Origin: Chromatiales bacterium
GTDB taxonomy: Bacteria > Pseudomonadota > Gammaproteobacteria > Ectothiorhodospirales > Ectothiorhodospiraceae
Assembly: GCA_028695255.1 (NCBI GenBank)
Contig: JAQVJI010000002.1
Span: 1 to 64,000, forward strand
Direction: 5' to 3'
Length of the DNA stretch: 64,000 nucleotides
Shown: positions 53,267 to 54,603 of the stretch, one piece after another
Layout of the letters: each line of letters opens with the position of its first letter
Numbering within the stretch: the stretch's first letter is position 1
The notes under the pieces: generated by a model
Told to the model about the DNA's origin: nothing
What the model saw: only the letters and a program-made list of their open reading frames with translations
The model's database searches: none
Program-made: the position numbers and the translations under genes

Positions 53267-54223
53267 TCAATCCATGAACAGGGTGCTGACCGACTCCTCG
53301 CGATTGATGCGGCGGATCGTCTCCGCCAGCATGCCGGCCACCGACAGTTGCCGGATGCGCGGGCAGGACTGGGCCGCCGGTCGCAGCGGGATGGTGTCGG
53401 TCACCACCAGTTCGTCGAGCACGGAATTCTGCACGTTGTCGATCGCCGGACCCGACAGCACCGGATGTGTGGCATAGGCGACGACTTTCTCGGCACCGTG
53501 CTCCTTGAGCGCGCACGCGGCCTGGCACAGCGTACCGGCGGTGTCGACGAGGTCGTCGATGATGACGCAGGTCTTGCCTTCCACCTCGCCGATGATGTGC
53601 ATCACCTTCGACTCGTTCGGCTTCGGACGGCGCTTGTCGATGATCGCCAGTTCCGCATCGTCCAGGCGCTTGGCGAGCGCACGCGCGCGCACCACGCCGC
53701 CGACGTCCGGCGACACCACGATCAGGTCCGGGTGCTTCTGGCGCCAGATGTCGCCGAGCAGGATCGGCGAGGCGTAGACGTTGTCGACCGGCAGATCGAA
53801 GAAGCCCTGGATCTGATCGGCATGCACGTCCACGGTCAGTACGCGATCGACGCCCACCGCCTCCAGCATGTTCGCCACCACCTTGGCCGAGATCGGCACG
53901 CGTGCCGAGCGCACCCGCCGGTCCTGGCGCGAATAGCCGAAATACGGGATCACCGCAGTGATGCGACCGGCCGAGGCCCGGCGCAGCGCATCGACCATGA
54001 TGAGCAGCTCCATCAGGTTGTCGTTGGTCGGCTGGCAGGTGGACTGGATGATGAATACATCGCGTCCACGCACGTTCTCCAGGATCTCGACCTGCACCTC
54101 TCCGTCGCTGAAGCGGCCCACCACGGCCTTGCCGAGCGGGATGTTCAGGTGGTCGACCACATCCTGGGCAAGCTGCGGGGTCGCATTGCCCGCGAAAATC
54201 ATCATCTTGCTCTTATCCGCCAC
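53267..54223 (-). CDS. prs: Ribose-phosphate pyrophosphokinase (PRPP synthase)
   Basis: Makes PRPP from ribose 5-phosphate and ATP. The 318-residue protein (usual size about 315) has [106 protein letters not shown], the catalytic [21 protein letters not shown] and PRPP loop [18 protein letters not shown]. Transcribed after tRNA-Gln and ispE, with a heavily structured 265-base leader. Confidence 0.97.
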
Positions 54224-54300
54224 GATACCGCCCCGGAGGTTGGTGGGTTTGGGCGAGGCGGTGCGAAACCGGCTTTCGCACCGAACGCCACGCAGTCACA

Positions 54301-54441
54301 CAACTTTGCATCAAAGTTGGCTGGGCCGGCAGGATTACGCGGGGCGATCCTGCCCCGCGCCCTTCGGGCCGCCGCTGTCGCGGCGTTCCGATTCGCTCCC
54401 GGCGAATCGGTCGAACCGCAACGGTTCAAATCCTGCCGGCC
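54301..54441 (-). repeat. tRNA-derived palindromic multi-hairpin element in the prs leader
   Basis: Outer 13-bp perfect inverted repeat GGCCGGCAGGATT (54324-54336) / AATCCTGCCGGCC (54429-54441). Inside it are five consecutive stem-loops: 54338-54359 (8 bp), a GCCC-TTC-GGGC loop, GCCGC-TGTC-GCGGC (54371-54384), 54388-54410 (9 bp), GAACCG-CAA-CGGTTC (54413-54427). Next to it is CAACTTTG-CAT-CAAAGTTG (54301-54319). The 19 bases 54318-54336 are identical to the 3' end of tRNA-Gln including CCA (54489-54507), and the opposite end repeats the T-arm/acceptor sequence inverted. It lies between tRNA-Gln and prs on their transcript. Confidence 0.75.
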
Positions 54442-54488
54442 GTGCTTCGTCAAGTATTCTGCCGTCCGGGAGAGACGGTAACTTCGTC

Positions 54489-54563
54489 TGGCTGGGCCGG
54501 CAGGATTCGAACCTGCGAATGCCGGAATCAAAATCCGGTGCCTTACCGCTTGGCGACGGCCCA
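54489..54563 (-). tRNA. tRNA-Gln (TTG)
   Basis: Reverse strand TGGGCCGTCGCCAAGCGGTAAGG...CGGATTTTGATTCCG...GCAGGTTCGAATCCTGCCGGCCCAGCCA, 75 bases with encoded CCA. Acceptor stem TGGGCCG/CGGCCCA and anticodon loop TTTTGAT (anticodon TTG) are complete. Placement between ispE and prs is typical of gammaproteobacteria. Confidence 0.96.
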
Positions 54564-54603
54564 TCTGTTCGATTCGTCGGGGAAGCGCGTCATCCGCACT
54601 TCG

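Follow-up and report, generated by a model that had tools for sequence, protein, structure and literature searches.

The 124-nt element located between tRNA-Gln and prs in the window (the whole analysed stretch of 64,000 nucleotides) is almost certainly a member of the RtT/TLR family, in a lineage from which no such element had been described earlier. This identity is secure. As for mechanism, we infer that the element is probably a transcribed tRNA trailer module, released by 3´ processing of the tRNA type.

Layout and family identity

On the minus strand, tRNA-Gln is followed by a spacer of 47 nt, the 124-nt element (54441-54318), another 95 nt and the GTG codon of prs. The features of the locus are:

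54489-54563, minus strand: intact tRNA-Gln(TTG) with encoded CCA (ARAGORN; Rfam RF00005, 65.4 bits)
54442-54488, minus strand: trailer separating the tRNA from the element (sequence)
54318-54441, minus strand: TLR/RtT element, from P1 stem to CCA (Rfam RF00391; own covariance model)
54423-54441, minus strand: inverted copy of the tRNA-Gln T-arm/acceptor, forming the 5´ strand of P1 (18/19)
54413-54427, minus strand: P2 hairpin GAACC/GGTTC, a helix conserved in the family (folding, covariation)
54388-54410, minus strand: P3 hairpin with CGGGA loop, GGA at 54397-54399 (folding, loop survey)
54370-54385, minus strand: P4 hairpin (folding)
54359-54369, minus strand: P5 hairpin GCCC-GAA-GGGC with GNA triloop (folding, loop survey)
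54339-54358, minus strand: P6 hairpin with AGGATC loop, GGA at 54348-54350 (folding, loop survey)
54318-54336, minus strand: tail, exact 19-nt 3´ end of tRNA-Gln including CCA; P1 takes its 3´ strand from the first 13 nt
54301-54319, strand not assigned: small 8-bp palindrome CAACTTTG-CAT-CAAAGTTG adjoining the tail, without T-run (sequence)
53267-54223, minus strand: prs (ribose-phosphate pyrophosphokinase), the next downstream gene (ORF; homologues in 30/30 relatives)

The tail is a direct repeat of 54489-54507, identical at 19/19 positions with a spacing of 171, and the 3´ end of the element, AATCCTGCCGGCCCAGCCA, is the same as the final 19 nt of tRNA-Gln. Inverted repeats are found twice: 54324-54336 pairs with 54429-54441 at 13/13 positions, which makes a perfect 13-bp P1 stem, and 54423-54441 corresponds to the tRNA at 54495-54513 with a single mismatch (18/19). 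The RNA of the element folds into one outer stem and five inner stem-loops at -86.7 kcal/mol (z -7.6), a stability reached by 0/200 shuffles; the z value is -7.2 when the element is folded as DNA and -7.7 when tRNA and element are folded together. An earlier note on this DNA had described five stem-loops within a perfect 13-bp stem built from direct and inverted copies of the tRNA-Gln end, and repeat comparison and folding agree with it on both points. Of its interval (54301-54563), the element proper occupies 54318-54441, the remainder consisting of tRNA, trailer and the small palindrome. Between tRNA-Gln and prs, no terminator-like site was found in the window.

The same note knew of no described family with this layout, which was a mistake: the Rfam covariance search matches RF00391 at 54318-54452 over the full length of the model (1-130), with 48.4 bits against a gathering cut-off of 45. 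Our own covariance model gives 119 bits for the window element, which was itself among the sequences used for building that model.

TLRs of E. coli were first described in 1978 and are still without known function (PMC8144298); Rudd (1999), as quoted in PMC8144298, counts 22 copies at ten loci. In each of them the last 18-19 bp reproduce exactly the end of the tRNA or 5S gene that directly precedes it, and an early claim that rtT acts in the stringent response was later withdrawn (PMC8144298). RtT RNAs are visible on Northern blots in Pasteurellaceae (PMC4986893), and a tandem G-A motif was reported in RtT (PMC7657543). The window element resembles E. coli rttR (RF00391, after tyrT-tyrV) in the order of hairpins, in a P1 made from copies of the tRNA end, in the 3´ CCA and in the same-strand tRNA upstream. 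It differs from rttR in that it follows tRNA-Gln instead of tRNA-Tyr, is a single unit, carries GGA loops in P3 and P6, and stands after a tRNA that precedes prs. Like the E. coli TLRs, which belong to the same family as RtT, it repeats in its 3´ 18-19 bp the 3´ end of the gene that directly precedes it. The elements surveyed here, however, are spread far outside Enterobacterales, occur also after tmRNA and, in relatives, interrupt whole tRNA copies in the T-loop. The RrA/RrB/RrF sRNAs, which are TLRs linked to 5S rRNA, are likewise structured and bear GGA loops, and RNase E is believed to read their tail; their transcription and their binding of Hfq and CsrA have been shown, whereas the window element is known from sequence (PMC8144298 for the sRNAs).

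Distribution, tails and covariation

Matches to RF00391 were obtained in 20/40 relatives, in 66/369 genomes of the class and in 43/399 genomes of the phylum, including another class. A survey with R1, a covariance model built in this analysis, collected 281 elements in 195 arrays. When array heads that lie at a locus edge are set aside, 184 remain; for 158 of these a tRNA on the same strand is located no more than 150 nt upstream, and none (0/184) has an antisense tRNA within that distance. The preceding tRNAs are those for Gln, Ser, Tyr, Lys, Arg, Glu, Pro, Val and Asp, and some heads are preceded by tmRNA (ssrA) instead. Elements stand directly after ssrA at loci L092, L200 and L192, and the unit at L092 ends in the 3´ end of the tmRNA. 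The search found two further element loci in the window's own genome. At one of them, tRNA-Ser(CGA) is followed by two tandem units, each ending in the tail of that tRNA. At the other (contig C80, L002), the contig stops inside an RtT unit; the tail is like that of surveyed tRNA-Glu genes, the tRNA itself lying off the contig.

Tails follow the tRNA ahead of them. Their mean identity to the own tRNA is 16.7/19 (exact in 110/227), against 11.4/19 to other isotypes and 15.0/19 to same-isotype tRNAs of different sequence; picking loci with a tail-containing model somewhat inflates the absolute match, but not the contrast between own and other tRNAs. Core similarity across families, in contrast, is independent of tRNA type (0.644 vs 0.643). 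Cores and tails have decoupled histories, which is new at family level.

In 36 of the 81 single-unit loci with tails of at least 18/19, the window included, the trailers of tRNA and element are unrelated. Recent duplication would leave both trailers alike and is thus excluded there; tails that match the local tRNA behind unrelated trailers argue for maintenance of the copy and against debris. The fold is maintained as well. In a covariation alignment of 35 rows, with the window among them, 93% of cells are paired, 23/36 pairs show double changes, and the covariation score is 0.444 compared with at most 0.094 for slid structures; the choice of sequences partly used P1, and P3-P6 played no part in it. 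The alignment thus displays conserved helices with compensatory changes, as expected for RtT, and P1, including its tail strand, covaries across the family.

A probable transcribed trailer and its loops

If the element is an RNA module, the following course of events can be imagined. It would be read together with tRNA-Gln, possibly on into prs. Folding and covariation show that a long closing helix, made of the inverted and direct acceptor/T-stem copies, then covers the five hairpins. The direct copy with its CCA might be recognized by the tRNA 3´ machinery, which would cut or trim behind the element and free a small RNA; for a processing role of the tail we would give about even chances. A requirement for the end both to match the local tRNA and to pair with the inverted arm may be the cause of the pattern observed, in which tails are kept and trailers diverge. 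The suggestion of a tRNA mimic or processing decoy in the earlier note is broadly in line with this reading. Similar steps have been described or proposed for 5S-linked elements: RNase E processing was proposed at RrB, the rrB TLR is cut 3 nt behind the repeat, and in rrnB, where a terminator lies ahead of the element, readthrough was proposed (PMC8144298).

Substitutions within helices also point to RNA. On the sense strand G-U exceeds A-C by 36:11, as expected under selection on RNA. Alignments fitted to a model, which have a tilt towards G-U, give 237:116 and 187:77. Some of the excess could come from the C-to-T bias of transcribed DNA. Three observations stand against an RNA role or restrict it. 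Firstly, P3, the most variable helix, has no clear bias of G-U over A-C. Secondly, deletion of rrA/B/F had modest effects only (PMC8144298). Thirdly, many relatives have an intrinsic terminator between tRNA and element, so that there the element could be transcribed through readthrough only.

Two hairpin loops of the window element, CGGGA of P3 and AGGATC of P6, contain GGA, as in the subset that resembles RrA/B/F, and we tentatively regard the element as a candidate CsrA ligand, though we would sooner expect that it is not one. Two GGA hairpins in one RNA would suit the CsrA dimer. Among surveyed elements, 165 hairpin loops contain GGA and 2 the antisense TCC; GGA is present in P3 and P6 together in 55 elements, in one of them only in 25 and in neither in 143 (kinship is ignored in all these counts). 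CsrA binds RrB via its GGA loops, and the 19 tRNA-linked TLRs of E. coli have low CsrA-binding scores and are predicted non-binders (PMC8144298). CsrA binding would therefore be a trait of a subset and not a property of the family. The csrA gene was not found in the window's own assembly, which is 82% complete; it is present in 37/40 relatives and, being nearly universal, does not discriminate as a correlate of the element.

Interrupted tRNA copies and rival explanations

The direct copy in the element is itself split into GGTTCGA, the core and ATCC...CCA. At the same GGTTCGA/ATCC joint, RtT cores split complete copies of tRNA-Gln(TTG) in several relatives and of tRNA-Ser in others; in the window the core splits no tRNA gene, tRNA-Gln being intact. 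Such interrupted copies lack CCA, have a hairpin after them and are located just upstream of an intact tRNA, which they usually adjoin. They look like a second TLR form, in which the tRNA body would replace the inverted arm. We found no earlier report of bacterial tRNA genes interrupted in the T-loop, though our literature search was limited and this is weak evidence of absence. We rejected the idea of a tRNA intron: wherever the anticodon is readable, an intact tRNA with the same anticodon is present in the locus, and the interrupted copies are without CCA, so that splicing is not needed.

Interrupted tRNA-Gln(TTG) copies were recorded at L035 862-1415, L044 899-1024 and L046 815-1155 and in L009, L047 and L119 (here and below in oriented coordinates), those of L035, L046 and L119 standing in tandem. 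Interrupted tRNA-Ser copies, with anticodons TGA and GGA, lie at L010 2228-2353, L028 2167-2292, L128 207-332, L141 730-862 and L107 794-916; the last one is degenerate and followed by an intact tRNA-Ser.

A serious rival of the RNA trailer is a selfish repeat that acts at the level of DNA, although we consider it rather unlikely. In this case a hairpin-rich core, which need have no host function, would enter or be copied at the tRNA T-loop (GGTTCGA/ATCC). It would grow into tandem arrays by slippage and template switching among its direct and inverted copies, and the same events would adapt its ends to the local tRNA. A mobile repeat was also suggested in the earlier note and may still apply. 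The splitting of complete copies of both tRNA-Gln and tRNA-Ser at one joint speaks for this DNA-level reading, as do cores that are indifferent to tRNA type with tails that depend on it, and so does the patchy presence, with tandem arrays and one scar-like remnant (in G009, below). C(GNA)G triloops make up 358/738 loops, compared with GNA in 3/151 terminator-like hairpins of the same loci, and G-U pairs are few (4.2% vs 14.5% in terminator hairpins). GNA loops form very stable DNA minihairpins, according to Yoshizawa (1997) and Hirao (1994) as cited in PMC6479982. The excess of G-U over A-C on the sense strand, the exclusive sense orientation downstream of tRNA and the exact tail despite unrelated trailers all speak against such a repeat.

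A more specific version, which we find quite unlikely, is that TLR cores are ancient T-loop-targeted DNA elements that rewrite both ends from the tRNA ahead; C(GNA)G hairpins would then be structures for copying of single-stranded DNA, and interrupted tRNA copies the products of insertion. If this is true, then the family spreads between tRNA types and yet always looks native. Besides the decoupled cores and tails, the T-loop interruptions, the prevalence of C(GNA)G loops and the GGA-loop subset to which the window belongs are new at family level. Natural variants of this kind (tails that follow the tRNA, cores independent of it, two loop types, T-loop forms) sharpen the old question about TLRs, and they make processing signal, CsrA ligand and selfish DNA directly testable against each other.

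An antisense switch, in which the inverted arm pairs with the T-arm/acceptor of the upstream tRNA and the tail copy is a decoy that frees the tRNA, seems improbable to us. The arm is complementary to the tRNA at 18/19 positions and, when tRNA and element are folded jointly, does pair with it in the structure of minimum energy. The covariation of P1 with its tail strand across the family argues against this switch, no regulatory input is known, and the tRNA folds first during transcription.

Still less probable is that the element serves prs as a riboswitch or a structured leader, the latter being another proposal of the earlier note. The position suggests it, 95 nt before GTG with no terminator found in between. 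The ispE-tRNA-Gln-prs site was compared in 30 relatives (19 of the same family, 11 of other families): the element precedes prs in 8/19 same-family genomes, the window's own among them, and is absent there in the remaining 11/19, two of which have the T-loop-interrupted upstream form, and in all 11 prs loci of other families. An element that is missing at most same-family prs sites and stands behind many other tRNAs is no conserved leader of prs, and we rejected this candidate. Among loci retrieved by ispE in named genomes, 5/51 have the element beside tRNA-Gln. In G009 (L153), the tRNA-Gln-prs spacer measures 84 nt and contains GTAAGCCGGC-GCAGCCA, which is scar-like and suggests loss of RtT by a deletion between the arms of the palindrome.

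That the element is debris, left when the end of the tRNA was duplicated by accident not long ago, finds support in the tandem units and duplicated trailers of relatives but is hardly credible: the window trailers are unrelated though the tail is 19/19, and strong covariation, the Rfam match and a fold far more stable than shuffles dispose of both debris and chance. Covarying stems and several genomic copies, the marks by which the earlier note would have told an RNA or repeat family from random tRNA debris, are both present.

Two minor observations may be added. An arginine-rich frame of 120 codons (window 54202-54564, minus strand) crosses tRNA and element and recalls the tpr frame that is annotated in the E. 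coli repeat; it is probably not a gene. At L094, near 729-864, an RtT unit persists behind a tRNA-Ser that is mostly lost, with a tail-like remnant left.
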